Below are positions 2,911-64,000 of a stretch of DNA of 64,000 nt, piece after piece. Below the pieces are notes generated by a model, which did no database searches, was not told the DNA's origin, and was given only the letters and a program-made list of their open reading frames with translations. The DNA comes from Malassezia japonica (Eukaryota; Basidiomycota; Malasseziomycetes; Malasseziales; Malasseziaceae): positions 744,001-808,000 of the forward strand of contig NC_083373.1 in the NCBI RefSeq assembly GCF_029542785.1, written 5' to 3'. The first letter of the stretch is position 1. Every line of letters begins with the position of its first letter. The position numbers and the translations under genes are program-made.

Positions 2911-3460
2911 ATGAGTAAGCAGGCACGGCCGCGGGGGATGCGGAGGTATCGTCCGCTTCCCATGTACGTAGCGAGTGTGCGCACGGCGCTGCGCACGGTG
3001 CCGCTTCGAGCAGTGCGTATTAACCACGCAGCAATTCGAAGTATGAGTTCCGCTCCCTACCGCACTGTTGCCACCCCCAACGCCCCCGGCGCGATCGGCC
3101 CCTACTCGCAGGGCGTCGTGCACAACGGCACGGCCTACCTTTCGGGCTGCATCCCGCTGGACCCCAAGACGATGCAGATCGTCGAGGGCGGCGTGGAGGC
3201 GCAGGCCGAGCAGGTGCTCAAGAACCTCATGGCCGTGCTCGAGGCCGCGGGCTCGGACAAGAGCCATGTGCTCAAGGTCACCGTCTTTATGAAGGACATG
3301 AATGACTTTGCCAAGGTCAACGTGCGTTGCTCGGCTAATCCAGACTATCTACGAAAAGGCATTTGCTCCGTACAAGCCCGCACGCTCGGCTGTCGAGGTC
3401 GCGCGCCTGCCGAAGGACGTGCTCGTCGAGATCGAGTGCATCGCCGCCGAGAAGAAGTGA
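2911..3460 (+). CDS. MMF1: Rid/YjgF family 2-iminoacid deaminase, probably mitochondrial
   Basis: Two exons, 2911-3321 and 3344-3460, encode 175 residues; the intron is 22 nt (3322-3343, branch CTAAT). The family hydrolyses reactive enamine/imine intermediates from PLP enzymes such as threonine dehydratase. The Rid signature is clear: a GAIGPYSQ segment near residue 60, a central SGCIPLDP, and a C-terminal segment in exon 2 with the conserved Arg and the 'VEIECIAA' ending. About 45 Arg-rich residues precede the core (in-frame Met at codons 1, 10, 18 and 45), which suggests a mitochondrial presequence as in yeast Mmf1; initiation at codon 45 would give a cytosolic Hmf1-like form. Without removing the intron the conserved C-terminus is lost. 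It converges on USE1 with 21 bp between stops. Confidence 0.9.
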
Positions 3461-3481
3461 CTCAGTCCGGCCCGTATGTAG

Positions 3482-4335
3482 CTAGGTCAACCGGATCACT
3501 ATATACATCACCACCCAGCTCACAAACACCATCGCCATGGACAGGATGGTGAACCAGCCCATGCTCCGCGCTTTCTTGGAAAAGACGCCGAGCTGGCCGC
3601 GTGTACGCGTCATGAGCGACAGATTCTGGTCCAAGCGCGAGCCGGCCTGCTCGACCAGCACGCGATCACGCTCCAGGGCATCGCCAAACGCGGCTGTGTT
3701 GCGCTTCAGGACGCCGGCCATGCGCAGCAGCTCGGACGAGAGCGCATCGTGCACTTGCGCGTCGGACTGTAGCGTAGGCTCCGCCGCCTTTTCCGACGGC
3801 GCAGCGGGCGACACGGGCGACGGGGTGGGGGGGGCGGCAGACGGGGCTCTCGCGCCGTACTCTTCTTTGAGCGCCGCATCGCTCGGCGCATCGGCCGCCG
3901 GCGCATCGTCGTCCGTGCTCTGGTCTTTGCTCCGTGCCTCTAGTCCCGCATACAGGTAGTCGTCCCAGTATTCGTCCATGCCCCGTGCACGTTTCGAGCG
4001 CGGCATGGTCTGTGTGAGCTGTGCGACGTACCCCTGCGAGACTCTCGACCGCATCACACACACCTGCAAGCCGCCGAGCATCCTCCCTGCATAAGCCATG
4101 GCACGTACCCGCTTCCCTGCTCGCGCGCGATGCGCTCCGCACGCCGTGCGGCCGCGAGCAGCTCCTTGACGCGCCAGCGGGCGGCGTCCGTGCGATTCGC
4201 GACGTTCGCACTCTTATGCTCCTCCTCCCGCGCCATGCGCTCCAGCGCCTCGACATACTCGCTCAGATCGCCCGGCGCACCCTCGCTAGCCCTGCGCGGC
4301 GCGCCGTAGAATGGCTCGCGCGCCAAGGCGGCCAT
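3482..4335 (-). CDS. USE1: Use1-type SNARE of the ER
   Basis: Three exons (4109-4335, 4032-4086, 3482-4009) separated by two 22-nt introns (4087-4108 and 4010-4031) give 269 residues. Use1 is a Q-SNARE for Golgi-to-ER retrograde fusion. Visible features are an N-terminal helical region, a middle acidic/Pro-rich stretch, a SNARE-like heptad helix around residues 185-240, and one C-terminal membrane segment ending 'MYIVIRLT'. The short second exon (55 nt) restores a continuous helical region. The start at 4335 is chosen because it lies 42 bp from the HTS1 long-form ATG and opens directly into the conserved N-terminal helix. Both introns begin GTACGT. Confidence 0.85.
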
Positions 4336-4377
4336 CGTCGGGGTGAATGTTTACGTAATTTCAGGTTCCTTCTGTCG

Positions 4378-6099: not shown

Positions 6100-6100
6100 C

Positions 6101-7767: not shown

Positions 7768-8484
7768 ATGGTGCAGTAGGTAGTATGAACTAACGCAGCG
7801 CGGACGCAGCAGGGCTGCCCAGTGACGTGACGAGCAAGAGCGCATTTTACACGCACCTCGAGGAGCAGCTCACGGCGCTCCTCGACGGCCAGCGCAACTG
7901 GGTCACGAACCTCGCAAACGCGAGCTCTGTAATCTACTTTTCTATGAACAAGTTTCCAGAGTGGAAGGAGAAGCGTGTGAACTGGGCCGGCTTCTACCTC
8001 CTCTCGCCCCTGTTTCCCGGTGCCGAGGTTTCTTCTGGCAAGGACCCCAAGCTCTGGCTCGGTCCCTTTTGTGGTCTCCCCGCGTGCCAAGCCATTAACT
8101 CGGTGCCTGGGCGCGGCGTGTGTGCGGATGGCAGCGCGGTGCTCCCCCCGCGCACCGTGTGTGTCCCCCGGACGGATGACTATCGTACGTGTCTCTACTG
8201 ACTCAGCCGGCCACATTGCCTGTGACTCGCTCTCCCAGTCGGAGATTGTCGTGCCGATTGTCGTGCCCCGCGCGAGCCTGTCGCAGGCCAGCCAGGAGGC
8301 CATCCGAGGCAAGGGCGAGCCGGAGCTCGTGCGTGCCTGGGGCGGTCGAGGCGACGGCGACGAGGTCATCATTGGTGTGCTCGACATTGACTGCGAGTCG
8401 CAGAATGGCTTTGATCAAGATGATGTACAAGGGCTTGAGCGCATCGTGCGCCGCATCAGTGCGGCCTGTGACTGGGCCGTCTAA
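7768..8484 (+). CDS. Free methionine-(R)-sulfoxide reductase (GAF domain)
   Basis: Three exons (7768-7775, 7799-8184, 8207-8484) with introns of 23 nt (7776-7798) and 22 nt (8185-8206) give 223 residues. The enzyme reduces free Met-R-sulfoxide using a GAF fold. The three family cysteines are present in order: in the ACQ segment, in GRGVC, and in the HIAC segment that directly follows the second intron. The 'SEIVVPIV' strand and a 'GVLDIDCE' segment are also present. The first exon is only 8 nt (ATG plus five bases); joining it yields the 'MVHAD' start. Without it the only upstream option is GTG at 7827. The protein is about 40 residues longer than typical, partly a Ser/Gly-rich insert after the first third. 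It is divergent from the serine O-acyltransferase. Confidence 0.9.
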
Positions 8485-9034: not shown

Positions 9035-10335
9035 ATGAGCTCGTATTCAGCAAGTACTACACACGCCGAGAACGGCGGTGCGACTGCAGTAAGTCCCTTT
9101 GTATGCTCATAAAGACCTGCACGTACCCTAGCAACGGACACGTGTATGGCACACCTGGCCATCTCGACTTCCGCTCGGCCAAGGGCTGTGCCGCTAGTCC
9201 CACGGGAGATGCCGGGCGCATCGTCCTGAACAGCCCCCGTGGTGGCACTCCTCTGGATACAGGCTCTATGCGTAACGCTTCGTTCGCGGCGCGTGCACGA
9301 TCACCTTCGCACTCGTACAGTGGTAACTTTTCCACGTCGTTCGGTGCGGCAGGCGAGGCTTTGTCGCTCTCCGCGTCGGAGCGTGCACGCCCCACCAAGG
9401 GCGTTTCGCCCTCGCCCAACATGCGCGACACCCGTACGCACAAGCACGACTTGGACGCCGATGTGAAGCCTTCGGCGAACCCTTCGATGCGCTTTAGCAC
9501 CACGGTGCCGACGCACTCGATGGGCTCGATGGAGGCTGCCGCGCGTCAGTACGGCATGTCGGGTCACCGCAAGCATGACGGCGAGAGCTCGTCGCCGCCC
9601 CGCCTCGCTGTTCCCCCGTCGGGCTCTCCGGCGTCGTCGGTGGATGCGGATGGCGACTACAAGGACGTGCACGGATCGTACCAATCGAACCAGCTCCTGC
9701 ACAAGTGCGAGAGCTGCTCGAAGGTATACCGCCATCCCAGCTGCCTAGTGAAGCACCGCTGGGTACGTGTCGAGACTAATCACAGGAGCACACCATGTAC
9801 TGGAAGGAGGCGTCCAAGTTCCTGATGAGCAAGCATCAGCAGGTCCAGCTTCTGGAAGCGGCCGCGATCCTTGTTGGCATGGACTCGAATGCTCGTTCGC
9901 TGCCGGAAGAAAAGGCGCTGTGGCCGGTAAGTGCTGCTCTACTTACCCCAGGCCGCTGTCAGCCCTCCGTCATCTGGGTTGCTTGGCTGTGACCAGGTCA
10001 ACTTCAACAAGCTTATGGCGAGCAAGGCGCGCAACAACTCGCCTCTCCCTAATGACCCCCAACACCCCGTGCCGTTCGGCACGTCTGCCCCGACCCACCC
10101 TGCACAGATGATGGGGGACCATGTTGGTGGACCCCATCGTACCACACAAAAGTCGTCGGGGCGCGAACCCTCGGATGAAGATATGGAAGATGAAGATATG
10201 GGCGCTGGAGACGACTCGTCGGAGCTTGATCTTACCACTCGCGAGGACGCCTACGGCCTCAACTCGGGCGGTGATGTCATGGCCGACATGGTACGTTGTG
10301 CCATCTAACAGCAGGACATGGAAGCAGACGAGTAG
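9035..10335 (+). CDS. C2H2 zinc-finger transcription factor
   Basis: Five exons (9035-9088, 9115-9762, 9786-9926, 9952-10290, 10312-10335) with introns of 26, 23, 25 and 21 nt give 401 residues. A single C2H2 finger (C-x2-C, then two His) begins with 'CESCSKVYRHPSC' and its second His lies in exon 3, so the finger exists only after splicing. It continues into a conserved helix containing 'ASKFLMSKHQQVQLLEAAAI', typical of a fungal C2H2 family distantly like yeast Ypr022c/Sdd4. The N-terminal 200 residues are Ser/Gly-rich and the C-terminus is acidic ('DEDMEDEDM'). The last intron ends in a NAGNAG acceptor (10309-10314), allowing inclusion or loss of one Gln. DNA targets are unknown. Confidence 0.8.
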
Positions 10336-15033: not shown

Positions 15034-15763
15034 CTATTTCCCGCGATGCAATGCAAAGGTTTCCTTGATGCCCTTTCCGGCGCGCAGATCGTCCATACAT
15101 TTCCCGTCGACGTCGCGGCCCTTGGTCGCGAGCTCGAGGACCTGCTCGACGAGGTCCTTTGGCACGCTCACGACCCCGTCGACGTCCGCCAGCAGAATGT
15201 CACCGGGGTGCACCGTCACCGGGGGAAAGCCGGGCTCGCCCTTGGCGCCGACCGACGTCGGGTCCGCGATCTCGAGCGGGATCTGGAGCTGCGACGGGCG
15301 CGTGAACGGCGACTGACCTAGAATCGAGTGCTGGCGCGCAAATACCGGAAACTTGCTCTCGCGGTGCTCGGCGAGGTCGCGGCAGCGCCCGTCGAGGACC
15401 ACGCCCTTGACCCCGATGCTCTGTGCGCGGGCGGTCATGAGCCCGCCCCAGATCGCGGAGCGCGTCGAAGGCGGCGAGGTAATCAGCATCACCGAGTCGG
15501 GCTCGGCAGCATCGACGAAATGCTTGTCCGGCTTTGGCGCGGCAGTGTCGCTCTGGAGCACCATCTGCGTTAGATCAGTGACCTACCTTGACGGTAAACG
15601 CGGGACCGCACACCGACGTCGGGCCGCTAATGTGCTGCGGCGAGTACATTTCAATGCCCGGCAGGTAGCCGCCGTGCGGTAGCTTGAGCTTGATCAGCGC
15701 ATCGGCCACCTCGCACGAGGAGAACTTGGCGAGCTGGGAGATCAGGGTCTTGTTCACGGACAT
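15034..15763 (-). CDS. RraA-like 4-hydroxy-4-methyl-2-oxoglutarate aldolase family protein
   Basis: Two exons (15587-15763, 15034-15564) around a 22-nt intron (15565-15586) give 235 residues. The conserved core is visible: 'GPAFTVK' at the end of exon 1, then a 'GGLMTARAQSIGVKGVV' stretch followed by 'DGRCRD', which is the metal/substrate loop, and 'HPGDILLADVDGVV'. The yeast relative YER010C has HMG/CHA aldolase activity; bacterial relatives inhibit RNase E. The start at 15763 is the first ATG; the frame reaches 15775 only through GTG. It is divergent from UFD1, with 51 bp between start codons. The physiological substrate in this fungus is not evident. Confidence 0.85.
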
Positions 15764-15814: not shown

Positions 15815-17016
15815 ATGTCGATGGTGCGTCGTACGCCTAACGCAGTTCGGCCAGATTGATCCGCAGTTTGGCGCTGGTCGCTGGGGCCTCGGTGCGGCAC
15901 TGAGTGGTTTTGACCGCCGCATGCCGGCGCCGCCGCAGGCGTACGAGGAATATTTCAAGGCATACAGCATGAACCACTTCTCGGCACGCCAACGGAACGA
16001 CGTGAGCTACGGTGGAAAGAGTACGTTGCTCGGCTGACGCAGTCATTATGCCGCCGTCGGCGCTTGCGACAATCAGTAGGTCGCCGCACTAACCCCAGCC
16101 GACCTCGAGCTCGAGTCGCCCTGGACGTTTACGCTGCGCAGCACGGGCCGCGGCGAGCACAAGCACACGCACGGCGGTGTCGTCGAGTTCATTGCCGAGG
16201 AGGGCATCGTGTACCTGCCCGTGTGGATGATGCGCATGCTTACGCTGCAGGACGGCGACCCGATTCACATCCAAGGCACGCGGCTGCCCAAGGGCAAGTT
16301 TGTCAAGCTCCAGCCCCAGACGGTCGACTTTTTGGAGATTAGCGACCCCAAAGCGGTGCTCGAGCAGGCGCTGCGCAACTACCCGACGCTGACGCCGGGC
16401 GACATTATCGAGATCAGCTACAACTGCCTCACGTTTGAGATTCTCATTATGGAAATCGAGCCGAGCGCCGAGGGCATTTCCATCATCGAGACGGATCTTG
16501 AGGTGGACTTTGCGCCGCCCAAGGGCTACGTGGAGCCCGCACCGAAGCCCGCGGCGCCGCAGCCGACCATGGCCTCGAAACTGCACATTGACCAGAACAA
16601 GTACGACAGCGTGCTGCCTGGCGGCGACAGCGCGACGCCCTTCCGCGGCTTTGGGCAGACGCTCAGCGGGAAAAAGACCAAGGGCAAGAAGGAGAAGCCG
16701 ATCGTTCCTCGCGAGCCGTCGAGCCTCGTGCGCAGTACAGAGTACGTCGTACTACTTACCCAGCCGCCCTACGATTGTCAGCAACGACACGCTCCTCGAG
16801 GAGAAGCGCGTGCCTGCCGCGCTGCACCTGCCGTTCGGCCAGCTGTTTTTTGGCTACAATGTCGAGCGCCTCGACGTCCCGGTCGACACCGCTCCCGAGC
16901 AGCCTGACGACGACCCCGCGCCTCCCCCCGACCGCCCAGCATTCGCCGGCGGCGGCCAGACGCTCCTCGGCACCTCGCGGCCCACGCCCGAGGTGATCGA
17001 AATAGACGACGACTAG
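15815..17016 (+). CDS. UFD1: Ufd1, Cdc48 cofactor for ubiquitin-dependent degradation
   Basis: Five exons (15815-15823, 15846-16020, 16043-16075, 16099-16741, 16764-17016) with introns of 22, 22, 23 and 22 nt give 370 residues. Ufd1 pairs with Npl4 on the Cdc48 ATPase to extract ubiquitinated substrates, including in ERAD. The N-terminal double-psi barrel is seen ('YEEYFKAYSM', 'THGGVVEFIAEEG', 'SDPKAVLEQALRN', 'VIETD'-like segment, 'DFAPPKGYVEP'), followed by the Npl4/Cdc48-binding tail. Exon 1 is nine bases (Met-Ser-Met). Exon 3 is 33 nt and encodes the 'IMPPSALATI' strand, so three introns fall within the first 90 codons. CCT4 follows after 57 bp. Confidence 0.95.
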
Positions 17017-19927: not shown

Positions 19928-20837
19928 ATGACGGAATCGTACGCGGCCGTGCAGCACCAGGCCCTGAACGAGCGGCCGGGGGCAGAGTGGCTCAACATGG
20001 GGGACTGGCGAGCGACGCGCCAGTTTTCGGATGCGTGCGAGGGTACGTCCATGGGCTAATGCAGCGCTCGCGCGGAGGCTGCATGACGCAGCACACATAC
20101 CTAGCGGCGCACGGATCCTCGACGTGGGACATGGCGCAGGCGACTCGCTGCTGGTGCTAAGAGAAAGAGGGCCAGACGTACTGCATGGCGTAACGTCGAT
20201 GCATGCGCATGCACGCCGTGCACAGGATCGGCTAGGCAGCCAAGGCACGGTATGGTGCGCCGATGCTAGTACCTGGCTCCAAGGGGAGGAGGGCAAACGC
20301 ATGGCCGAGAACGGCAGCTCGCTGCCCTCGTACGACACGATTCTCGCACTCGACTGTGCGTACCACTTTCCCAGCCGCCCCGCCTTTTTCAAAAGTGCAT
20401 ACGCGCGCCTTGCTCCAGGCGGGACGCTGGCGTTGGTCGACCTGGTCAGTGCGTGGCCGTACCCCAACGCGGCGCAGTGCACGCCGTCGTCGCTCGCTCC
20501 GCCGACCCATGCGCCGGCACTTTGGAAACGAGCTATGCACCGCATTACGTGTGCCCTAAGCGGCACGCCGCCTGGCTCTTTTATCCCACTTGATACCTAT
20601 GCGCAACAGCTGCACGACGCAGGATTCGAGCACGTCGACATGGCCGACATTTCCGACGCTGTCTTTCCCGGCTTTTCTACGTTTCTCAAGCGCCTCGGAA
20701 CCGATGCCGAATGGCGCGGCGGACGCCTCGAGCTGCGTGGCCTCCGTGTGTTCGGCAGCGTCGTCGGCCAATGGGCATCCGGCGGCGACGTGGGCATGGT
20801 CCGATGTGCCCTTATTACGGCCAAGAAACCTTATTGA
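19928..20837 (+). CDS. SAM-dependent class I methyltransferase
   Basis: Two exons (19928-20042, 20065-20837) around a 22-nt intron give 295 residues. Motif I is 'ILDVGHGAGD'; an acidic 'DTILALDCAYHF' segment marks motif II/post-I, and 'LAPGGTLALVDL' is motif III, the pattern of ubiE/Erg6-like small-molecule methyltransferases. The substrate is not evident. Exon 1 supplies the conserved 'EWLNMGDW' lead-in, which supports the intron call. The CDS overlaps the 3' end of the convergent lipid kinase by seven bases. Confidence 0.8.
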
Positions 20838-22036: not shown

Positions 22037-23654
22037 ATGTCGACGGATCCGCGGCTGGTTGACCTGCGCGACTTGAGCGACGCGCTCGAAGAGAGCCACG
22101 GAAATGCACCGGGACCCGATGCGATTCCGGCGGTCCCCAATGCAGAGAAAAAGGAGCAGTACGCATCGCAGGTCGAGCAGCTACAGAGCATGTTTCCCGA
22201 TACGGACAAGCATGTCTTGGCAGACATCCTCGCCAAGCATCGCGGCAATGTCGAGTCCGCAATGCCGGCGGTGCTCCAGGTGAGCGACCCCGAGTACAAG
22301 CCCAGTGCCGATGAGCAGGCGGTCCAGAACGACGCGCGCTTTGCGCAGCAGCTCGCCATGGAGGGCCAGGGCCCGTTTCCGGTCGCGCATGCCTGGCCTG
22401 CACGGCAGCAGACTTGGGACCCGTCGCAGCTGCGCTATAGTCCCCGTGTTGTGCGGCCGCGCGGCGAGCGCCAGCCTGCAGGGCAGGCGCCGCAACAGCC
22501 GGCTCCGCACTGGACAGGGCAGTACCGGCCCCGCGATCCTGCCTATGTTCCCCCGCATGGACATGGCACAAACGGCGCACCTGTTTATGGCGATAGTTTC
22601 CAAGACGAGCTCATTGCCGACGGGAAAAAGCTCCAGGCGGACTTGACGCGTTTTACCGAAAGTACGTGGCACGACTCACCCAGATGGCATTGCCAAGATG
22701 AGCTCGACCTTTATGAACCTGCGCCAAAAGGCCGAGCAGGCGATGCGCAACCTGCCGCAAGATAGCCCGTTCCGCTTGCGGCGCGAGAATATGATGCACG
22801 ACGGCGCCCGCCACGACTGGGAAGCGAATCACCACACACTCGGCCACCGGTACGACCAGGACCCGGAGCCGGTGCGCGACGGCGAGCTGGACCGCCTTGC
22901 GAGCGAGCCGCCGGCGGTGCCGAGCAAGGACGTACCGCGCCCAAGCAAGCCTGCGCAAAAAGGGCCGCTTTGGGGGCAGCGGTACGCTAAGCAGGCGCCG
23001 GCCACGGGCATAAGCCACAACTCGGCGAATGCCAAGCTGTCGACCTGGGCAGACGTCGGCCGCGAGGACGACGATCCGAGCGGCGGCGTGTCCAAGGCGG
23101 ACAAGGCCAAGGCCGATGCCGAGAAGCAGATCAAGGAGCAGGCCGAGGGGGTGAACAGTAAGCGTGACACTGCGGAGGACACGGAAAAGGACACGAGTGT
23201 ACAGGACTCGAAAGCAAAGGAGGCCACACCACCAGAACAAACCAAGGATAGCAAGACTACGGAAGATCATGCCGAGGGCAAGGCGAGCGGGGCCAAGGAG
23301 GAAGGCACCGAGGCCAAGGCGGCCAAGGAGGCCAGCGACAAGAAGGCCAAGGTGCCGGAGACCAAGGCGGCTGACGGCAAGAAAGCCAAGGGCGGCATTT
23401 CCAAGGCGGCCAAGACCGGCAATGGCAAGGAAAACGAAGCGAAGTCCACGTTTAAAGAGGACGCCAAGACGGACGACAAGGTCGAGTCAAAAGAGACCGA
23501 CGCGGACACCAAGCCCGAGACGACCAAGAGCACCGACACGAGTGCCAAGACCCCAGTCTCGTCCGCCGCCGCGCCTGCCGACCAAGCGCCAAGTGCGCTT
23601 GATGCCGACGACGACGAAGAATATGTCCATAATCCATTCAACGACGAGGACTAG
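22037..23654 (+). CDS. CUE-domain ubiquitin-binding protein (Cue5-like)
   Basis: Two exons (22037-22661, 22684-23654) around a 22-nt intron give 531 residues. A CUE domain at about 37-85 has the hallmark 'MFP' motif and a following Leu-rich helix; it binds ubiquitin. After a Pro/Gln-rich region comes a conserved stretch 'DELIADGKKLQADLTRF' that continues across the intron. The C-terminal 180 residues are a Lys/Glu/Asp/Thr-rich disordered tail. A 'TWADVG' segment could serve as an Atg8-interacting W-x-x-V motif, as expected for a Cue5-type aggrephagy receptor; this is inference. The end is 34 bp from the convergent Zn2Cys6 gene. Confidence 0.82.
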
Positions 23655-37950: not shown

Positions 37951-38956
37951 CTACCAGTTGGCCACCTGCTCGGCCGTGAGCGGCTCGGTCTCCTGCTCGT
38001 ACTCGACCTCGAGCTTGGGCCGGCCGCGCTTGTCGCGGGCATCCGGGCGCTTGAATGGCTTGGGGTCGCGGCGCGGCGCCTTGCGCTTGCCGCCCTTGGG
38101 CTTTTCGTCCTCCGAGTCCTCCTCGGACTCCTCGTCGCTGTCCGCCTCGGAGCTGTACATATCCTCGAGGTCGTCGTCGTCGTCGGACTCTTCGTCGTCG
38201 CTGACAAACTCGCGCTGGCCATAGTCGTCTTCGTCCATATCGCGCATGTTGCGGTCCATTTCCTCGATGTCTTCCTCCTCCTCTTCGTCCGTGAGCTCCT
38301 CCTCGAGCGCAACGTCCTCGCCGTTCTCGTTCGGGACGCGCGCCTGGGCATTTTCGAGGACTGCGTTCCAGACATCTTCGTTGACATTGAGCGGCGCGTC
38401 GCCGTATGCGCCGCGCTTGAGACGGTCGAGCAGCTCTTTTTCGATCGACTTTTCGAGCTTGGCGGCGCGCAGGGCCTTGACTTCGCGCGTCGCTTCGCGG
38501 CGCTCCGTCTTTTTCTTGATACCGACGAGCTCGGGTCTGGGTTAGTAGTGCGACGTACTGTTCCTCCTCTTTCAACTTAATCTTGCGCATCTTGATCAGG
38601 TACTGCGTAATCTTGGTCAGACGCTGCTTGGCCTTGTGCACAATAAAATTCGGCCAGTAGATGAGCTCCTTGTCGATCTGCTCAAGAGCAGTGCCATACC
38701 GGTTCGAGAGTTTCACACGCTCCCACTGCCTCCGCGGCGAGTGCGCACGCTCCGGCGTCTTGATATACAAATAGACCACACCCTCTTTCTCGCGGATCGT
38801 CGCGTAGCGCGAGTTCGCAAGGGGGCACGACTGCCGGTTGCACAGACCGGTCAGGTTGTATTCATTGCGGCAGAATGTCGAATGCGTCGTCGACTTGATC
38901 TTGTACGAGCAGAACTGGTGGCCGATCACCGACCAGATCACGTCGTCCGACTGCAT
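37951..38956 (-). CDS. MAK16: Ribosome biogenesis factor Mak16
   Basis: Two exons (38559-38956, 37951-38536) around a 22-nt intron (38537-38558) give 327 residues. Mak16 is a nucleolar protein of early pre-60S assembly. The N-terminal Cys/His zinc-type module is clear ('[20 protein letters not shown]'), followed by '[12 protein letters not shown]', 'ERAHSP' and '[18 protein letters not shown]'. Exon 2 continues with '[16 protein letters not shown]' and an acidic Asp/Glu-rich tail. In the unspliced frame the second half is replaced by an unrelated Arg-rich read-through, so the intron is needed. The ATG is 45 bp from the stop of the upstream START-like gene. Confidence 0.95.
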
Positions 38957-42000: not shown

Positions 42001-43820
42001 CGACCTGCGTCCGGATCGACGAGGGGTCGGACGGCGGGAGCCACGGGAAGGCGTCCGTGTCGTCCGTCGAGAACGCAAAGAGGTGGATCGAGTTCGGCGA
42101 CTTGTACGCGGTCTGCACGAGGACCGCGTCGCGCGCCGTCGTCGTCCACGAGCCCTGCGTGTGCATATGCCACACGACGCTCTGGCCGCCCATGTCACGC
42201 AGCAGCACCGCGCGCCCGGACGTCTTGTCCCACTGCGCCGCGAGCTCGGGGTGGCTCAGCGTCGAGAAAAAGTCCCACACGGAGAGGCCGACAAACGTCG
42301 CCTCTGCGCGGTACACCACGAGCGTAGGGTCGATCGAGTCGAGTTGCGTCACGGTCACGCCACGCAGGTCCGACACGCGCGTCCACTTTGCCTCGGGCTC
42401 TTGCAGGAGCGAGGTAAAGTAGATGTAGTTGCGCCGCACGAGCGACGCGAGCGGCGTAAGCTGCAGCGAAGGCACCGTGCTCGACAGCGTTCCAGAAGAC
42501 GTCGAACGGGGCAGACGCACGTCGGGGCTATCGCTCAAGCGCGACGCAGGCGACATTGCATGCGCCGACACGAGGCGGTCGAGCAGCGGCGGGCGGCTCG
42601 GCAGCGGCACGCTCGGCACCTCGGCGACGTCTTCGTCGTTGACCTGGACGCCAGACGGTGCACGCCGTACCTCGATGTGTACACGAATAAACGATTCGGC
42701 GTTCTCGATTGGATCATGCTCCAAAATCAGGGTATAATACGGCGCAGACACGGCGAGTTTGGCGCGCCACTGGGCGCTGCTGTTGCGTGCGGCCTTGGCG
42801 TTGACATGCAGTGCCCAGCCGCCGCGCATCGGCAGGCCAATCGCGATCGATCGCGGCGGCGCGAGGCCGTCTGGGCCAAAGGGGATGCCGTGGCTCGGCC
42901 CGTCCTCGTCCTCGTCGAGGACCGTGTAGGAGAGTTCGAGCGGCACCTCGTCACCGGACAAGGAAGCGGTCACCTCAACTCCTGCGCCGTAGCTCGCCAG
43001 GTAGGGCACCTGGCGCTCCTGTTCGACGTACGCGACAAGGCTCGGCAGCATCCGGGGAAAGTAGGCGACCATGGCATTGCTGCGGATGCCGAGCAGCGCT
43101 CCATGCAGGTCCCACGACCAGTACGCGGTCAGCGCGAGGCGCGTCGGCGACGTGCGGCGCACAAACAGCGCCGAGAGGTGGACGTGTGCGCGAACGTACG
43201 GCGGCGCCGGGCGCAGGTACGACGGCGCATCGTGCGTGCGCGGCACCGACGTCGCGACGTACACCAGCGCATCACTGTCTGCAGCAATATAGGTAAGCAG
43301 GATCGCATCGCGCGCGCTCGTCGGCCAGCCGAGGCGGAAGCGCGTCTTTTGCACCTGCGTGTGGGGACCGAGGACCTCGATCACGTCTGCCCCCTCGACG
43401 ACCGGGAGCCAGTGCGGCGTGCGCTGTGCATTCTGCAGCACCGCCTCGAACGCCTCCATCGGCAGCGCCTCGCGGCATGCGTGCTCCCACGACGCCCGGT
43501 ACACGTCGGTGCCGCCGAGGCGTTTGCGCATCACGGCAAATGCGACGGGATCGTCGCCGCCGTGCGGAGTCGGCGTCTGTGTCGGGGCAGGTACATCGTT
43601 CAGTGCACTCGATACCGACACGTCGCCCGCGTCTTGCGGCGGCGCAGCCCGCCCGCTTTCGCGGTTGGTCGGCATCGCACGCCATTGTTTGGCCATGGAT
43701 GTGTCGGTGTGCAGCGCACATAGTTCGTCGACGGCATGCTGCAGCGACTCTTGCCACTGCTGCTTGAGACTGCGTGAGTAATGCGACGTACTATGTCAAG
43801 TTCCCTTCCTCGCTCGCCAT
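39002..43820 (-). CDS. Large START-like lipid-binding protein with one membrane segment
   Basis: Two exons (43792-43820, 39002-43769) around a 22-nt intron (43770-43791) give 1598 residues. Exon 1 (29 nt) adds the 'MASEEGNLTYLKQQW' N-terminus. At least two and probably three regions look like START/SRPBCC lipid-binding domains: about 90-250, about 470-680 ('VWDFFSTLSHPELAAQWDK', then 'SVVWHMHTQGSWTTTARD') and about 900-1110 ('RADKIVEGIAAEELLHLV', 'DERMGNATTL'). A disordered region follows, then a hydrophobic segment at about 1470-1495. A membrane-contact lipid transporter is a reasonable inference. It is the only large START-type gene here, and no Lam-family GRAM or VASt domain is seen. Confidence 0.75.
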
Positions 43821-44155: not shown

Positions 44156-47100
44156 CTATTGCCCATAGTACCCTTGCGGCGGCATCATGTAGCCGCCTGT
44201 CGGATGGCCATACATCCCTGTAGGCGCCATCGGCATGCCCGTCATTTGCTGCGGCATGAATCCGCCAGCGAACGGCGACGCGTCCATCTGCGGCTGCTGC
44301 GGCGCATCGCTCACGATACCACCAGAAGCAAACCCTGTAGGCTGTGCACGCAGTGCGTCGTACTTTCCGCTGCTCTGCGGCATCGAGTCGTTATCGCGCG
44401 AAAAGGCACCCGTCTTCATCTGCTGGAAGACATTCGCGGCGCTGTACTTGTCGTTGGACTGCGTCGTCTCTGCCGTCGCTGCACCAAGCGCCGGCTGCTG
44501 CGGCTGCGGGGCTTGCGGCTGCGGGACCTGCATGCCGGTCATCTGCGGCATCTGCGGCATCTGGCCGCCTGCAAAGGGGCTCTGGGGATAGCCGGTCGAC
44601 ATTGGCATCATGGGGTAGCCCGTCATTTGGCCTTGCATCGACGCAGGCCACCCGGTGCCGGTCGGCACGATCTGGCCCGTGCCCTGCAAGGGGATGAGCG
44701 GCTGCAGTAGGCCCTGGTTCGCAGGCACCGGCGCAAACGGCGCCTTGGCGCCCGCTGCAGTCATGGTCGGCTTTGGCGCCGGTTTCATGCCCGCGAGCTT
44801 GTCAAAGAGCGCCGACTCGGGGTCGAGAGGCTTCTTTTCATCCTCCTTGGGCTTGTCCTTGGGCTTGTCCTTTTCGTCTGCCTCCTTTTCCTTGCGCTCG
44901 CGCTCGCGCAGGAGCTCGACAGCGGCAGCGATCGTCTCCGCGTCGACCCCGTTCTTGCTCTCGGGCGTGCGGTCCGGGAGCGGACTGCGCTCCGGCGCGG
45001 GGCTGCGCTCCGGCACAGGGCTCGGCTTGTCCGCCTTTCTCTCTGTCGGCACGCGCTCGGCGCGCGTCGCCGCGCCACTCGCCCGGCGCTGCGCGGCAAT
45101 CTCTTGCGCTTGGAGCTTACGTGCAAGCTCTTCGTCCTCGCGAATGCGGCGCTGCTCGTCCTCGCGCGAACGGGGCGGCGACGCGGTGCGCGCCGGCGTC
45201 CGGTTCGTCGGTGTGCGCCCGTTGCGCTTGTCAATCAGGCGGCGCACACGGATAATGTCGCCCTCGCGCAGACCGATGCTGCGCAGCATATTGGCGTCGA
45301 CTTCTTCGAGGATCGCCTCGTCGATCTGGTCGCGCTCAAACAAGGTCGCGTACCGTGTGCAGTTGTCCACATCGACGCCGGCCTCGAGGAAAAACTCGAA
45401 CCAGTCAATGTTGCGCGACGGCACCTGCGACGACCGCCGGTTGCGCTGGTCGCGAGGCGGTGCAACAGCCCGTGGATCGCGCGGCGGCGCAACAGACCGC
45501 GGATCGCGCGGCGCGCGGCTCCGTTCTTGGCGCGGCTCGGCACGCGGGCGCGACACCACGTCCGACGGCGCCATGACGAGGCGGCGGCCAGTAACTTTTT
45601 CGAGGTAGGCCAGGTCGACGTCCGACATCTTGGCGAAGGGGACCTCGATCATCGAGCCGTTCGTCTTGTGCAGGCGCACATGCTCGTTGCGCACGTCCAC
45701 GAGCTCGGCATCGACCTTGAACTTGCCGGTCGCATCGATCCAGGTGCGCGTGCGCGTCGGCTTCTTGGCCGCAGGTGCGGCGCCGCCTTCGAAGCCGACC
45801 TTTTTCGGGGTGCTGCCGCGGCGCGACGAGCCTTTGCTCGTCGAGCTCACGATCGACGTCTGCGAGCGCGGCGCTGCGGGCTCCTGCGGCATGTCACGCA
45901 CACTGTCGAGGATCTCGACATAAGCCGCAGGCACGACACCGACGACGCCCGCGGCGTTCTGCAGTTTCCACCACTCGTCGTTTTCCTTCTCGATGAGCGC
46001 AAGCTGGTCGTGCTCCGAAACGCTCAGCTCATCGTCGCCTTGCGCCTCAAAGTCGTAGAGCACAACGACCATTTCTTGCTCGAGCGGCGCCGAGGACTTG
46101 CTCTTGGGACCCGCCGTCACGGCCGGCGACGGTGCAGGCGCAGGCGCAGGCGCAGGCGTCGGCGTCGGCGCACTGCCGCGCGACGCGGCCTTCTTGCTCG
46201 CCTCAATCTTGGACTGGATGGCGTCTCCGGCGCTCTTGGAGCCGACGTGGAACTGGAGCAGGTCACCCTCGACGTTCGCTGCGCCAGACAGTTCGAGCGT
46301 CAGGTACTTGCCGTCGGTCGACGAGTGCAGCACGTTGCTGATATCAATCTGAGGGACCGATGCGCCATTCGTCTCGGTCGCAAAAAACAGTGCGCAGTTG
46401 CCGATACCGAGCGTGCCCTTGCCCTTGCGCTTCTTTTTCTTGTCGAGTTCCTGGGTAAGTAGAGCGACGTACCGTTACCGACCACATCTTCATTTCGTCT
46501 GGCGCGGCCGACGCACGCGGCGCGGTCCATGCTGCAGGCACGTCGGCAGTTGCGCTGGTCTCTGTTCCGTCCGTCTCGTCTTCGTCTGCGCGTGCGCGCG
46601 ACGGCGGGGGAAGGAAGGCAGAAGGAGGGGGAATGGGGGCCGCCGGCGCAGGCGGCGCAGCCGGTCCGGGCGGAGCAGCCGGCGCAGCCGGCGCCACCGG
46701 TGCAGGTGGAGCAGCCGGTGCAGGCGGAGCGGCTGGTGCAGGCGGAGCAACCGGTGCAGGCGGCGCCGCGGGAGCCACCGGCGCAAACGGCGGCGGCATG
46801 GCGCGCGGCGGCGGTGCGCTCTCCTCGGCCGGCTCCTCGATCGGCGGTGCGGGTGCCGGAACGGGTTCCGCGCGCGGCCCTGCGTCCTGCTGCGCCGCTG
46901 CGCCGCCCTCCTCTACATAGTTTGCCGGCACGAGACCGAACGAGCCGTGGAGTGATGCCAAGAGCCACTGGTCGTCGACCTCGTACACGTCGAGTGTCTC
47001 GCCCTCGTTCATGCTAAGCTCGTCCTCGTTCTGTGCCGCATAGTCGTACGCGGCAACGACCTGCTTGAGCGGTGCGCTGCTTTCCACGTAGTTGGCCGGC

Positions 47101-54100: not shown

Positions 54101-54436
54101 TCGGTCGCGGAGAAAAACTTGGAGGCCACCGTCTTGTTACAGTCCTGGATTAGTCGGGATACGCACCGCACATCGGAAGCAGTCCAGGTGGTACACACCA
54201 CCGAGTGCACGCACAAACTGCCCAGTCATCGGCAGACCGCACGCAGCACACGACTGGTCGCGGCGGGGGAGCGTCCGTGACTCCTCTTCGTGGCTCCCCC
54301 GGCGCACCGGCACCTCGTTCTTCGCCAAGCGCACAGAACTATGGACTCGACGCACAGTACGCATAGACGCGCCTTCGGCACGCTCGCCCGCGCCGTCGAC
54401 AGGCGCAGCGCGGCGCGACACGCCATCCAACTCCAT
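51196..54436 (-). CDS. LRG1: LIM-domain RhoGAP (Lrg1-like)
   Basis: Two exons (54167-54436, 51196-54144) around a 22-nt intron give 1072 residues. LIM domains: the first begins 'CAACGLPMTGQFVRALGGVYH' and is split by the intron within its Cys knuckle; two more follow ('CAKCGRALRGSYI', 'CSGCHTAILKQF'), and another near 560 ('CVQCTKTVEEECL'). The C-terminal RhoGAP domain (about 840-1050) has the Arg finger 'EGIFRKNGN' and 'LPDPLMTSKLY', with 'NLATVVCPNILY'. Lrg1 inactivates Rho1 in cell-wall and polarity control. The start at 54436 is 93 bp from the transporter ATG. Confidence 0.92.
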
Positions 54437-54529: not shown

Positions 54530-56242
54530 ATGTCGCGTTCGCCGACGTGGGAAGGCGCGCCGCAGCGCGCGCCGCCGCTACGGAGCACGGGCGCGTCCAA
54601 AGAAGTGGTGTACGATATCGACTCGGATACCTTGCCGGAGGAGGATAGTCTCGTGATGCCAGACGACTCGATCGTACCGAGCGTCGCGGAGAGCGCGCGT
54701 CTCGGCATGGGACGCGTGCCGTATGCGGCGCAGAGCCGCACCTCGCTCGACACGATCGGGCAGCGGGTGCGCTCCATCTCGCAGGCGCTCGATCCGGAGC
54801 AGCTGCCCGACTGGCTGCGCCGCGGTGCGGGCGTGTTTGAGGGTACGGTGAATATGGCCAACAGCATTCTCGGCGCAGGCATCGTCGGCTTGCCGTATTC
54901 GATGCGCGAGTCGGGCTTTGTGGCGGGCATCGTGCTGCTCGTGGGCATCGCACTGCTCACCGACTGGACCATTCGGCTGATTGTGCTGAATGCCAAGCTC
55001 AGTGGGCGCACGACCTACATTGACATCATGGAGCACTGCTTTGGCCACAAGGGCAAGGGTACGTTTGCACGACTAACGCAGTCGCCGTGTCCATCTTCCA
55101 GTTTGTCTTTGCTTTTGGCGGAATGTGCGCATTTTGCGTCGTGGTGGGCGACACGATCCCCAACGTCATCTCGTCCGTGCTGCCGGCGCTCAAAGGGAGC
55201 TTTTTGAGCAACCGCCAGTTTGTGATTGTCGTGTGCACGATGGCGATCAGCTTTCCTCTGTCGCTGTACCGCAACATTGAGAATCTGAGTAAGGCCAGCG
55301 CCGTGGCGCTCCTGTCGATGATCTTTATCATCTTTGCCGTCGTCTTTCGGGGACCCGCGATGCCGGACGAGCTCAAGGGGAACCCCGCACTGCGTGTACG
55401 TTTCGCTGCTAATTCAGTTCACCTTTGTCCATCCCTCGAACCTCATTCGCTCCATTTCCGTCATTAGCTTTGCGTTTGTGTGCCATCACAACTCGCTGCT
55501 CATCTACGGCTCACTCAAAGAGCCATCGATGGACAAGTTCCGCACTATTACACACTACTCGACGCTCATCTCGGCCTCAGCTGCGATCTCCATGTCGATC
55601 GCGGGGTACTGGTCGTTCGAGGACAAGACCCTCTCCAACGTCCTCAACAACTTTCCCCAGACGGACACAATCGTCAACATTGCCCGCTTCTGCTTCGGGC
55701 TGAACATGTTTACCACGCTGCCGCTCGAGTGCTTCGTCTGCCGCGAGGTACTCGAGACGTACTTTTTCCGGGGCGAGTACGAACGCAACCGGCACATTAT
55801 CCTCACCACGGGGCTCGTCGTGTCGGCCATGGTCGTGTCGCTGCTGACGTGTGACTTGGGCGTCGTGCTCGAGCTCACGGGTGGCCTCAGCGCAACGGCG
55901 CTCGCCTTCTTTTTCCCCAGTGTGTGCTACCTCAAGCTCAGCCACGACGCAAGCCAAGTCGACAGCTCGGCGCTGTACTTTGCATTGCCAGAAAACGACA
56001 CCGACATCCCGGGCTCGTACGGCGAAGAGGAAAGCGTCCAAGCTGAAAACATCGCCTTGCCACTGCGCCCGGGCGCCAACGCCCACGAACGGGAGCCGCA
56101 GCAGCAGTTTAAGTGGTGGGAGTCGACAAAGCTCTTGAGTATCGCTTGTGCCGTCTTTGGGTTCATCGTACTCAACGTCTCCGTCGTCACTGCCATCGCC
56201 GACGCATGGAGCGGACGCGCGGGCGCGACACACCAGTGCTAA
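54530..56242 (+). CDS. Amino-acid transporter of the AVT/SLC38 family (Avt2-like)
   Basis: Three exons (54530-55058, 55082-55395, 55418-56242) with introns of 23 and 22 nt give 555 residues and about 11 hydrophobic segments. The first transmembrane helix carries 'NMANSILGAGIVGLPYSM', typical of the Avt2 branch; other landmarks are 'YIDIMEHCFG', 'SFAFVCHHNSLLIYGSLKE' and 'FTTLPLECFVCREVLE'. An acidic N-terminal tail of about 100 residues precedes it. A vacuolar or endomembrane location is inferred. The end is 24 bp from the convergent lipase A stop. Confidence 0.88.
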
Positions 56243-57649: not shown

Positions 57650-57681
57650 TGCAACAGGGTAGTTTAATCCGTCCTACCTCC

Positions 57682-57690
57682 CTATTTATT
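57682..57690 (-). promoter_or_regulatory. TATA-like element of lipase A
   Basis: AATAAATAG on the minus strand, about 33 bp upstream of the lipase A ATG. Housekeeping genes in the window show no comparable element. Confidence 0.4.
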
Positions 57691-61742: not shown

Positions 61743-63140
61743 TCACTGGCGGTGAGCGTGATGTTTGATCTTGGAATGAATGTACGCATCTCCAGGGCCA
61801 ACCTCCTTGCCGACAATGTTCTGGATGGCTTCAACCAGAGATCCGAGACCCTTCAGAGGTACGCCCGGGTCCTCGAGCGGGTTTCCGGTCCGCTTATGGG
61901 TGAATCCCTTGGAGAACGACTTGCCTTCCATGCGATCGCGCACAAAGAAGAGGACGTTGGGGAGATTAAAAAGTTCCGAGGTAAGATGAGCCATCGTGAC
62001 ATCAGTGAGCTCTTCGAAGTAGACATCGGCACCGTGCTTCGCCCAGTCCCTGCCAGTCTTGATAGCAGAATTAAACGGAATGACTTCATCATGCTGACCG
62101 TGGAACATGTAAACAGGAACCGTGGGGGTCTCACTCTTCTTGTATCCCATAACCATATCATAAATAACGGAACGAATCGTGGGGTCGTAGAGCAGCTCTC
62201 CTCCGCCCAGGACAAACTTGTCGCTCAGCAACTTCTGGAACGGATATTCAAGAAGCGTTTGAACAAGACAGTTGTTGCGTGCGAACTCAATTGCTTGGTG
62301 TCCCGCCTTTGTGATCTTGCCCTTGGACCACTCCATAATCTTTGGGTACGTGTACAAAAGACCCACGACACCGGCAATACCAAAGCCAGAAAACAGACCA
62401 TCGTTCAGGTTCTCCACCGTGCTCGTGATGTTGGCAGGCGTTCCGCCCATCGCAAATCCTACCGCGTTGATCTCGGGAGCGTAGCTCGGCTGCAGCGCGG
62501 CAGCCCAGCCAGAAGCAATGGCACCACCCGAGTAACCGAACGAGGCCACCTTGGACTTCTTGCTGAGACCGATGCGCTCATAGTTGAGGGTGGCACGGAT
62601 ACCATCGAGCGACATACGGCCTTCAAGGCGTCCAGCAGCAAAGGCGCGGGTGGGTCCCTGGTGGTCCGGTAAGGTCATGATATAGCCTTCTTCAAGAAGC
62701 GTAGAGAAGAGGAGTTGCTGGTAGTTAAGAGCGAGATCGGTTGCAATCTTTCCACCCTTGCGCATTGCGTAAGAAGGAGCGCACTGCGCACCAGCAGCAT
62801 CCGTATAGATCATGTAGTTGACAAGCTTGTCGCGCTTGGCATTGTGAGGAATAATGACAGTAGTGACGGTGGTTGAGGGGTCGTTCTCATAGGCACCGGT
62901 GGTGCGGTAAAGGATCTGGTAGGCGGCTTCATAGTTGATCTCGTCGATTTGCAAGAAGGCAAGATCGACCTTGCGAGTACGGAGTACATCTCCGTTGCTG
63001 GCTTTCTTCCATCCTTTGGGAGGGGTATAGAAAGGATCGTTGAGAGGGCTCAGGATGCTATCGCGACGCGATGGGGGATGCGAAAAAGCCGATGCCAGTT
63101 GGACCAGCACAGCTAGAAGTGGGAAAAAAGCCAAAAGCAT
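61743..63140 (-). CDS. Secretory lipase C (CalA/LIP family)
   Basis: 465 residues from ATG 63140, with a signal peptide (MLLAFFPLLAVLVQLASAF); the longer frame begins with a non-ATG codon. Likely triad Ser204 (GYSGG), Asp351 (QHDEV) and His385 (AHLT). Intronless. Its codon use looks less GC-biased than that of lipase A. A TTTTAA-like element lies 56-63 bp before this ATG, weaker than the TATA boxes of A and B. The lipase relic lies 0.8 kb downstream. Confidence 0.93.
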   Translation of the reverse strand: MLLAFFPLLAVLVQLASAFSHPPSRRDSILSPLNDPFYTPPKGWKKASNGDVLRTRKVDLAFLQIDEINYEAAYQILYRTTGAYENDPSTTVTTVIIPHNAKRDKLVNYMIYTDAAGAQCAPSYAMRKGGKIATDLALNYQQLLFSTLLEEGYIMTLPDHQGPTRAFAAGRLEGRMSLDGIRATLNYERIGLSKKSKVASFGYSGGAIASGWAAALQPSYAPEINAVGFAMGGTPANITSTVENLNDGLFSGFGIAGVVGLLYTYPKIMEWSKGKITKAGHQAIEFARNNCLVQTLLEYPFQKLLSDKFVLGGGELLYDPTIRSVIYDMVMGYKKSETPTVPVYMFHGQHDEVIPFNSAIKTGRDWAKHGADVYFEELTDVTMAHLTSELFNLPNVLFFVRDRMEGKSFSKGFTHKRTGNPLEDPGVPLKGLGSLVEAIQNIVGKEVGPGDAYIHSKIKHHAHRQ

Positions 63141-63740
63141 GGTAAGAAGTGTTTTGGGGGGGAGTGTGCGTTCCAAAGCCCATGTATCCCCCAGGTTTTA
63201 AGGGCGTTGCTCAGCGATATAACAAACATCGGCGTAGCCGCCGAAACAACAGATGAAGTACCTTGAAATAAACCATATTCGGCCCAGGCCGACCTTCACT
63301 CTTTCTTATTCGCTACGAACCAGCTACCCCGCATCCTCCATTTCTGGTCTCGAGTCTCCTGCATCAGGTCCAGTGATTCCCTGTGTCGCGGCTAATGACA
63401 TTCGCATTGTTATTGGCCAGAATTAAATCAAGCGCATTTATACTCCGCACAACTCGTTGTGTCAGGTGGCCCAAATATGCACAAGTGCATAGATATGAGG
63501 CACGTCTCAAATCATTTATTTTACCCCTGCAGGCAAAGGGTCGCAGCTAATACTGCAAGAGTAACATTCCTTTCAATCATATCTACGTATGAAGTGGAGG
63601 AAGTAGCCGTTCTCAAGGAGACCAATCCCCAACATATTGACCGACTTCCTCGCCAGAAAGTGTGGGGCAAAACGAGATAGCACTTTCTCATTGGCCTGCA
63701 ATGTCCATTCCTGTTTAATGCTAATGTACATAATCGGGGG
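63141..63740. other. Intergenic region between lipase C and the fatty acid hydroxylase-type gene
   Basis: 600 bp, no supportable gene. It contains ATTGGCCA (63412-63419), as upstream of lipase A, and an inverted repeat TCGGCC-CA-GGCCGA near 63270-63285. Confidence 0.45.
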
Positions 63741-64000
63741 TTACCAGACTCTATTGGACCAGTCCAGATTCTCTTTACGTGTCTCAACTCGCTCTCCTGC
63801 CGTACCAAAAAGAGCATCCCAGATCATGGATTGTTTGCCGTAATTGTAACTCTGTTGCCAACCATTCCGGTGATGAAGGTCGTGGTCTTCAAGAGATGCC
63901 TCACACTGGATGGGTCGAAGCAAAGGAGCGGTCTAGAGTCAGCTTAGTGGATCGTACCAAAGGGCCAGGGTAGTAAAGTCGCAAACCAGCATGTCCAAAA
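63741..64000 (-). CDS. Fatty acid hydroxylase/sterol desaturase-family protein, C-terminal part (cut by window edge)
   Basis: The last exon (63741-63932) and part of the previous one (63958-64000) are joined by a 25-nt intron (63933-63957, branch CTGAC). The joined frame reads 'GLRLYYPGPL', then 'PIQCEASLEDHDLHHRNGW', 'NYGKQSMIWDALFGT' and a C-terminal 'NLDWSNRVW'. The H-x2-HH cluster and the 'NYGKQ..IWD.LFGT' block are family marks of membrane di-iron hydroxylases/desaturases. The N-terminal His boxes and membrane segments lie outside the window. It could act on lipids released by the neighbouring lipases; substrate unknown. Confidence 0.8.

Follow-up and report, generated by a model that had tools for sequence, protein, structure and literature searches.

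Malassezia japonica is a basidiomycete yeast of the skin. We analyzed a 64-kb stretch of its genome (C4:744001-808000, hereafter the window) whose genes are interrupted by introns that are mostly 22 nucleotides (nt) long. Short introns are on record for the genus – a review mentions very short introns in Malassezia genes (PMC7426719), the annotation of M. restricta set the smallest permitted intron first to 20 and later to 15, and its introns have a mean of 37 and a median of 30 (PMC6473144, PMC9241646), M. globosa has a reported mean intron of 76-79 (PMC4634964), and a survey of fungal introns counts M. sympodialis as intron-poor (PMC8476143). A preliminary description of the window had doubted how fully such introns were described for this lineage, and with respect to the length itself that doubt is a fair one: the consulted portions of open-licence papers contain no 22-nt mode in Malassezia.

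The introns analyzed here have a fixed architecture and a length floor, their removal is needed for reading frames and protein domains, and the genome carries genes for U2, U6, U1-70K and U1C. We consider it highly probable that they are U2-type (major-spliceosome) introns squeezed to the shortest length that this spliceosome accepts, each read by intron definition.

Introns of 22 nt predominate within and outside the window

The M. japonica genome comprises 8,433,779 bases in nine contigs. Our gene models cover 244 kb, namely the window and the stretch C2:1-180000, and our counts of motifs, spacings and frames cover 260 kb, which adds the flanking stretches C4L and C4R (16 kb). Genes were modelled by a signal-free gene finder, which relied on codon statistics and GT/AG alone, ignoring splice motifs and weighting all lengths from 15 to 120 equally, and in a second run with splice motifs added and no length preference within 15-300. 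The searches themselves require GT-AG ends, and their reversed and scrambled versions, run as controls, yield far fewer matches. Gene finding is biased against introns with a length divisible by three, and the motif run favours a branch motif of the CTNAY kind.

The motif run placed 33 introns in the window (35 genes), 17 of them 22 nt long, and 92 in C2:1-180000 (93 genes), 58 of them 22 nt long, for 75 22-nt introns among 125 across the modelled 244 kb. These totals of 33, 92 and 125 still include implausible rows of the kind that we excluded from our final window set. When the columns of the 5' site model were put in reverse order, the gene finder returned 48 introns, one of 22 nt; with both signal models reversed it returned 36, again with one of 22 nt. 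A motif scan of the window gave 46 matches of 18-43 nt, including 19 of 22 nt and eight of 23 nt, and 30 dinucleotide-preserving shuffles gave 0.5-0.7 matches per length from 21 to 26 nt, both strands together. The signal-free gene finder kept 22 introns in the window, six of which are motif-bearing 22- or 23-mers.

The pattern extends across the genome. GTACGTN{6,14}CTRACN{1,3}AG, which spans 20-30 nt, has 750 forward and 697 reverse matches (1,447), as against 9 + 7 = 16 for the reversed pattern. Among the matches listed, all on C1, 28 are by eye not 22 nt long (23-30; none 20 or 21) and the rest are 22 nt. The same pattern has 32 matches in the modelled 244 kb with its 125 introns, which puts our estimate for the genome at ~4,300 introns when scaled by area and ~5,700 when scaled by ratio, or about one per gene. 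The narrow 22-nt mode, which the preliminary description had placed far below the usual fungal size and had proposed to count genome-wide, is therefore a property of more than the window. Lengths divisible by three account for 10 of the 50 introns other than 22-mers, a deficit too weak, and too biased by gene finding, to claim.

Our final window set holds 36 introns: 19 of 22 nt, eight of 23, three of 25, one of 26, single introns of 32, 33, 34 and 46 nt, and one of 24 or 21 nt according to the AG chosen. It consists of the 33 modelled introns minus three that we dropped as implausible and lacking the usual architecture (227 nt at 646-872, 257 nt at 35609-35865 and 40 nt at 61746-61785), plus six motif introns overlooked by the gene finder. 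Other motif candidates in coding sequence that are absent from the gene models were not taken as introns, apart from those six and 10291-10311. The earlier count of 38 thus shrinks by two, with its numbers at 22 nt (19) and 23 nt (8) unchanged and one 25-mer and one 26-mer unplaced. The introns, together with a 9-nt exon, are as follows.

3322..3343, plus strand: 22-nt intron, RidA/YjgF gene 3043-3460; both gene-finder runs; RidA match E 5.5e-40, gapless at the junction
4087..4108, minus strand: 22-nt intron, Use1-like gene 3482-4335; gene model
4010..4031, minus strand: 22-nt intron, same Use1-like gene; gene model
7776..7798, plus strand: 23-nt intron, GAF-domain-like gene 7768-8484; gene model; GAF match under the curated cut-off
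8185..8206, plus strand: 22-nt intron, same GAF-domain-like gene; both gene-finder runs
9763..9785, plus strand: 23-nt intron, gene 9103-10335; gene model
9927..9951, plus strand: 25-nt intron starting GTAAGT; gene model; the sole +4 A among 125
10291..10314, plus strand: 24-nt intron (21 nt with the first AG, 10291-10311); gene model
15565..15586, minus strand: 22-nt intron, RraA-like gene 15034-15763; both gene-finder runs
15824..15845, plus strand: 22-nt intron 1, Ufd1 gene 15815-17016; gene model
16021..16042, plus strand: 22-nt intron 2, Ufd1 gene; gene model, structure match
16076..16098, plus strand: 23-nt intron 3, Ufd1 gene; gene model, structure match
16742..16763, plus strand: 22-nt intron 4, Ufd1 gene; both gene-finder runs
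20043..20064, plus strand: 22-nt intron, methyltransferase gene 19928-20837; gene model, Pfam
22662..22683, plus strand: 22-nt intron, gene 22037-23654; gene model
26183..26205, minus strand: 23-nt intron near the 5' end of the Zn2Cys6 gene (model 23689-26310 lacks it); motif, domain
26116..26137, minus strand: 22-nt intron (GTACGC), Zn2Cys6 gene; motif, domain
28697..28729, minus strand: 33-nt intron, COX12 (cytochrome c oxidase 6B) gene 28417-28786; gene model, public protein
28634..28679, minus strand: 46-nt intron, COX12; gene model, public protein
28625..28633, minus strand: 9-nt exon of COX12 between two short introns; gene model
28600..28624, minus strand: 25-nt intron, COX12; gene model, public protein
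28477..28499, minus strand: 23-nt intron, COX12; gene model, public protein
29509..29542, plus strand: 34-nt intron 1, Prp18 gene 28917-30017; gene model, relatives' alignment
29641..29662, plus strand: 22-nt intron 2, Prp18; gene model, structure match
29803..29825, plus strand: 23-nt intron 3, Prp18; gene model, structure match
29879..29910, plus strand: 32-nt intron 4, Prp18; gene model, structure match
30147..30168, minus strand: 22-nt intron, G-protein gamma-like gene 30035-30293; gene model; GGL E 1.1e-5, just under the curated cut-off
30823..30845, plus strand: 23-nt intron, cyclin gene from 30546; motif, domain
31140..31164, plus strand: 25-nt intron, cyclin gene; motif, domain
31254..31279, plus strand: 26-nt intron, cyclin gene; motif, domain
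35925..35946, minus strand: 22-nt intron, protein kinase gene, close to its 3' end; motif, domain
38537..38558, minus strand: 22-nt intron, MAK16 gene 37951-38956; gene model, structure match
43770..43791, minus strand: 22-nt intron, gene 39002-43820; gene model
46451..46472, minus strand: 22-nt intron, gene 44156-47288, which we take to be Sla1-like; gene model
54145..54166, minus strand: 22-nt intron, gene 51196-54436, presumably LIM/RhoGAP-like; gene model
55059..55081, plus strand: 23-nt intron, amino-acid transporter gene 54530-56242; both gene-finder runs, Pfam
55396..55417, plus strand: 22-nt intron, same transporter gene; both gene-finder runs, Pfam

The last of these marks the end of the intron-bearing part of the window. 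It had been drawn to 63957, an end without support because no GTRNGT...CTNAY...AG intron occurs between 56 and 64 kb; that segment holds two loose matches with GTC/GTT starts (57832-57868 and 58114-58135) and the dropped 40-mer.

Other features of the window include three consecutive nitroreductase-family genes, probably tandem copies (33195-35643, minus strand), and an 84-85-nt tRNA-Ile (AAT) at 43945-44028 on the plus strand. On the minus strand at 56267-63140 lie two secretory lipase genes (Pfam) and nearby a third that is similar by eye, in sequence of lower G+C in which no short introns were found.

The introns have a fixed architecture and a length floor

We tabulated matches by two distances, from GTRNGT to CTNAY (1-15 free bases) and from CTNAY to YAG (0-7 bases). 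One combination, with seven bases ahead of CTNAY and a single base before YAG, accounts for 77 matches; it places the branch A at +17 and makes the intron 22 nt long. The combinations that rank next have 7, 6, 5 and 4 matches. Spacers shorter than seven bases before CTNAY account for just seven matches, and in every one of these at least five bases separate CTNAY from YAG.

The modelled introns have the same limit. Among the 118 that bear CTNAY, the branch A lies 16 nt past the first G in 80 and is never closer, and five nt follow it in 89. The motif gene finder allows closer branch points and four bases after the A, so this floor was not built in. In modelled 22-nt introns the 16-nt distance holds for 74 of 74 scored, in agreement with the value of about 16 nt first proposed, and one of the 75 lacks CTNAY. 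Longer introns carry their additional bases mostly upstream of the branch. A dominant single length below ~30 nt and a fixed branch position are the marks of the ultrashort class of ciliates, nucleomorphs and mikrocytids, and here 75 of 125 introns share one length with the branch at +17.

The 5' ends are similarly restricted. GT-N11-CTNAY-N-YAG has 91 matches in the 260 kb, which start with GTACGT (56), GTAGGT (11), GTATGT (6), GTGCGT (4) or GTACGC (4), with ten other hexamers making up the remainder; GTAAGT accounts for none of the 91, and the reversed-sequence control gives 9 matches in all. The preliminary description had named GTACGT and GTAGGT as the usual starts, and these are the two commonest. 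Within the 22-nt introns G is preferred at +8 (0.55) and C at +9 (0.57, with T at 0.25), and G occurs at +9 in 1 of 75 (P ~1e-11). These preferences are weaker in the 44 longer introns, five of which have G at +9. At a guess, the +9 bias would be consistent with pairing to U6, at the G that lies four bases upstream of the C in ACAGAGA.

The 22-nt motif carries up to 25.8 bits (an upper value, as the set was picked by motif), and 24 bits suffice to name one place in this genome. Such introns are thus nearly self-specifying: 54 of the 57 strict 22-mers in C2:1-180000 are introns of gene models.

Removal restores reading frames and protein domains

For motif candidates with a clear coding frame on either side, we determined which of the two readings, spliced or unspliced, agrees with the frame downstream. 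At 22 nt, 41 of 78 candidates were testable and 39 of these fit the spliced reading only; across the ten lengths from 22 to 35 that are not divisible by three, 54 of 120 were testable and 52 need removal. Controls gave 12 of 446 testable segments for GT-N18-AG lacking the motif and 2 of 17 for GTRNGT-N14-AG lacking the branch motif.

The spliced proteins match solved structures (Ufd1 E 3.3e-64, Prp18 1.1e-23, COX12 2.1e-31, MAK16 5.6e-85, RidA 5.5e-40). In the alignments shown, the sequences run gapless through the single RidA junction, all four COX12 junctions, Ufd1 introns 2 and 3, and Prp18 introns 2-4; intron 1 of both Ufd1 and Prp18 falls outside the aligned part, and Ufd1 intron 4 lies in a loosely aligned part. 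The spliced RraA-like protein matches Pfam RraA-like (E 2.1e-27, residues 17-191) across its junction, and the Pfam Use1 match of the Use1-like protein covers residues 121-269, downstream of both junctions.

COX12 is the most densely interrupted example, with four introns (33, 46, 25 and 23 nt) in 80 codons, the first three of which are separated by exons of 17 and 9 nt. Its spliced product is 100% identical over 80 residues to the public M. japonica cytochrome c oxidase subunit 6B, so the annotators of that protein placed the same junctions.

All six introns added to the window set are backed by domains – three in the cyclin gene, one in the kinase gene and two in the Zn2Cys6 gene. Removing the three cyclin introns yields a Cyclin match of E 1.1e-32. 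The kinase domain scores 156.6 bits and reaches the profile end when spliced, versus 138.4 bits and a truncated match when unspliced, and the Zn2Cys6 domain scores 32.7 bits with 26116-26137 and 26183-26205 removed and has no match in the unspliced reading. The gene finder missed these kinase and Zn2Cys6 introns because the unspliced frame is also open: the kinase frame is open for longer unspliced (739 versus 691 residues), and the Zn2Cys6 introns (23 + 22 = 45 nt) sit in an open frame. Gene finders that trust open frames would miss cases such as the Zn2Cys6 pair and lose a domain unnoticed.

Spliceosomal components

The genome encodes a canonical U2 snRNA with GUAGUA (C2:763486-763677, 123 bits) and a canonical U6 snRNA with ACAGAGA (C9:407313-407417, 81 bits). 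The CTNAY branch motif is complementary to U2 GUAGUA; it has the 77 matches at one spacing versus at most 7 elsewhere, and is present in 74 of the 75 modelled 22-nt introns. Genes for U1-70K and U1C are present, and the U1C gene, read by eye, is itself split by two short introns of the same kind with a third close behind. Prp18, a splicing factor whose gene lies in the window, carries four such introns. With U2, U6, U1-70K and U1C present, the introns are most likely U2-type. U12-type introns have an ATATCC-type 5' site and a TCCTTAAC-type branch; the introns found here have GTACGT/GTAGGT and CTNAC, though they were sought with such signals and no search was aimed at U12-type introns in the rest of the genome.

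A U1 snRNA with the 5' end ACUUACCU was not recovered. Searched with RF00003, the genome yielded nothing at E 10. The decamer ATACTTACCT, with which a canonical U1 begins, is absent from the assembly, because all 13 occurrences of ATACTTACC precede A, C or G and never T. Viewed over 110 bases from the motif start, six of these 13 places are by eye CTTAC-CCAG intron 3' ends. Patterns built from U1 features led to candidates that we rejected: TACCTN{10,35}GATCANGAAG at one place inside an apparent coding gene, ATACNTACCTN{12,40}CANGAAG at one place lacking U1 features, ACNTACCN{10,40}ATCANGAAG at one place that is coding by eye, and ATACNTACCTN{1,3}G in 51 rows, never with T at N, some of which are 5' splice sites read from the opposite strand. 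Rfam scans of the last set, covering all places except C8:151490, C8:509080, C9:64878 and C9:505631, found no U1 at E 1. U1 may lie in missing or masked sequence, or may have a changed 5' arm.

The ATACNTACCTN{1,3}G rows are distributed unevenly, with 10 forward and 41 reverse, an imbalance that is somewhat inflated by overlapping rows.

Adenine is nearly excluded at the fourth intron position

An A at +4 elsewhere faces U1 and the m6A of U6. Of the 125 modelled introns, 87 carry C at this position, 19 carry G, 18 carry T and a single one carries A. With 19% A, 24 of 125 would be expected (P ~1e-10), and the gene finder slightly preferred +4 A, yet returned it once. Part of the bias is common to the genome, as A occupies N in 29 of all 388 GTANGT in the sample, both strands included. 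The near exclusion of +4 A is new here.

In Saccharomycotina, a +4 switch from A to U accompanies loss of METTL16 and SNRNP27K (PMC10581693); a text search of that paper finds neither Malassezia, Ustilago nor Basidiomycota, and its consulted portions contain no +4 C state. We put forward tentatively, as an idea with the chances clearly against it, that M. japonica has rebuilt 5' splice-site recognition for minimal introns, with +4 A all but forbidden, with the 5' arm of U1 snRNA changed (e.g. towards ACGUAC, the complement of GUACGU) or U1 too diverged for known models, and with U1-70K and U1C kept. A loosely held U1 could then leave early and allow U2 and U6 to dock 16 nt apart. If true, the A/U switch of Saccharomycotina would be joined by a third state at +4.

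Public Malassezia proteins at short-intron sites

Searches with Prp18 (genome contigs) and Ufd1 (viral contigs) found no relative's DNA, so the introns of other Malassezia were judged from proteins only. Five other Malassezia proteins were aligned for Prp18. At the exact junction of the 22-nt intron, the M. psittaci protein has 11 extra residues, which we infer to be those of a retained 33-nt intron ending CTGAC-AAYCAG, and the M. yamatoensis protein lacks 18 residues; the M. brasiliensis protein is intact there, and that of M. vespertilionis continues into a cyclin like the one encoded next door in M. japonica.

For Ufd1, six of 13 aligned relatives diverge from the shared sequence at intron 4, where they read EYV or EYE, as a GTAYGT-like read-through would give. 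The six are M. yamatoensis, Malassezia sp. CBS 17886 and four unnamed sequences. One of the unnamed sequences is 98% identical to M. japonica over 48% of its length, and the CBS 17886 protein is in addition missing the exon of 11 residues that separates introns 2 and 3. In COX12, the M. globosa protein lacks WQN, three residues partly encoded by the 9-nt exon 28625..28633, and the M. caprae protein has two residues fewer and ten extra around the small exons, where those of M. furfur and CBS 17886 are intact.

Judged from these alignments, several public Malassezia proteins misread these sites: introns appear to have been retained, exons to have been lost and, in one protein, neighbouring genes to have been fused. 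M. japonica is not named in the best 120 of 1,322 rows for Prp18 or the best 120 of 1,601 for Ufd1, which leads us to guess that the public M. japonica models of both may be faulty. The practical consequence is for the annotation of Malassezia proteins at short-intron sites, and the intron-poor label of M. sympodialis (PMC8476143) may, we would guess, partly reflect annotation settings.

How the introns are best explained

In a minimal intron of this kind, GUACGU (or GUAGGU or GUAUGU) occupies +1 to +6, and a spacer of seven bases leads to CUNAC, which places the branch A at +17. The single base that separates CUNAC from YAG cannot accommodate a polypyrimidine tract, and the 3' site is therefore probably picked by its distance from the branch. 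The floor would represent the least distance between a 5' splice site held by U6 and a branch helix held by U2. The human A complex spans ~79-125 nt of RNA (PMC11913375), so U1 and U2 cannot sit side by side in that way on a 22-nt intron. U1 would be unable to stay on +1 to +6 with U2 fully seated seven bases off, and its early exchange for U6 would be the simplest way out – a handover that weak pairing at +4 may favour. In human cells a subset of short introns is reported to use SPF45, not U2AF (PMC8363638), and Smu1 and RED are reported as required on short introns (PMC6692369).

Several observations weigh against this account. That a spliceosome removes these segments is something we infer from genomic sequence. 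The U1 snRNA was not found in the genome by the RF00003 search, the U1 patterns or the Rfam scans of candidates, which leaves the handover model without one partner. RED is a human factor for short introns, and its RED_N domain (PF07808) has no match in the genome, nor in the prokaryote controls, in a search that lacked a positive control, so its absence is not established. Both MAK16 alignments shown are gapped by one or two residues beside the junction. The other 16 introns of the signal-free run are longer, at 28-119 nt, and several of these fuse motif introns or extend past them; reversing the branch model alone gave 70 introns, 14 of which were still 22 nt long.

Compatible with the idea of U2-type introns at a spliceosomal minimum is the view that the 22-nt mode is a passive end point of compaction, reached by deletion down to the floor and with no selection for 22 as such. 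The chances of this seem to us evenly balanced. In its favour, the genome is small, the commonest intron length coincides exactly with the floor, and greater lengths become steadily rarer; against it, the +8 and +9 preferences of the 22-mers, being weaker in longer introns, hint at selection on the 22-nt form itself.

It is very unlikely that the segments are real but are removed by self-splicing, tRNA-type ligation or a second spliceosome. In its favour, U1 snRNA was not found and +4 A is nearly excluded, so initial recognition of the 5' site may depart from the norm. Against it stand the GT-AG ends, the fit of CUNAC to U2 GUAGUA, the U6 ACAGAGA, the U1-70K and U1C genes, the Prp18 gene in the window, and the lack of a U12-type 5' site in the introns found (U12 snRNA itself was not searched for).

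There is next to no chance that the segments are assembly frameshifts or chance motif matches resembling introns: most lengths are indeed not divisible by three, as with frameshift errors, and many loose motif matches in coding sequence are not introns, but errors would share no motif, whereas the common motif here carries ~26 bits (again an upper value), the genome-wide matches number 1,447 against 16 reversed, nearly all strict 22-mers of C2:1-180000 (54/57) are modelled introns, and the four-intron COX12 equals the public M. japonica protein.

Comparison with other systems of very short introns

Among basidiomycetes, short introns are shared by other Malassezia and by Cryptococcus. The mean intron of C. 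neoformans is 56, and its introns below 40 nt are spliced poorly (PMC11913375); M. japonica has a 22-nt mode with a floor, as opposed to a merely short average. Its smallest accepted intron is a number with a sharp edge – a branch A never nearer than +17 among the 118 scored, and 22 nt in total. This makes M. japonica convenient for studying the lower limit of intron size that a spliceosome can handle. Gene deletion is reported in M. furfur and M. sympodialis (PMC5654937), and together with the small genome this would make for a handier minimal-intron system than ciliates or nucleomorphs.

The introns of chlorarachniophyte nucleomorphs (18-21 nt) and mikrocytids (16-17 nt) are, like those of M. 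japonica, narrow in length, conserved and very short, and the mikrocytid snRNAs named as identified are U2, U4 and U6 (PMC10245619). These are reduced endosymbiont or parasite genomes with ~800 introns (nucleomorph) and 224 (M. mackini), in contrast to the 4,000-6,000 that we estimate for M. japonica. Paramecium introns (~25 nt) are likewise ultrashort and narrow, and are reported to show a deficit of lengths divisible by three (PMC5014332). Paramecium belongs to a different kingdom; in M. japonica the mode lies exactly at the floor and the corresponding deficit is weak.

The heterotrich ciliate Stentor coeruleus (15-16 nt) resembles M. japonica in having one dominant length and a nearly fixed branch A, there at the 10th/11th position, and in its major spliceosome with U2 GUAGUA and U6 ACAGAGA (PMC9505925). 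Its introns are six to seven bases shorter and lack a strong branch consensus, whereas those of M. japonica have a strong CUNAC and +4 C; a U1 with ACUUACCU was found in Stentor and not in M. japonica. Set beside these systems, M. japonica is a dikaryotic yeast whose ultrashort introns, most likely U2-type, combine a measured floor with a nearly forbidden +4 A.

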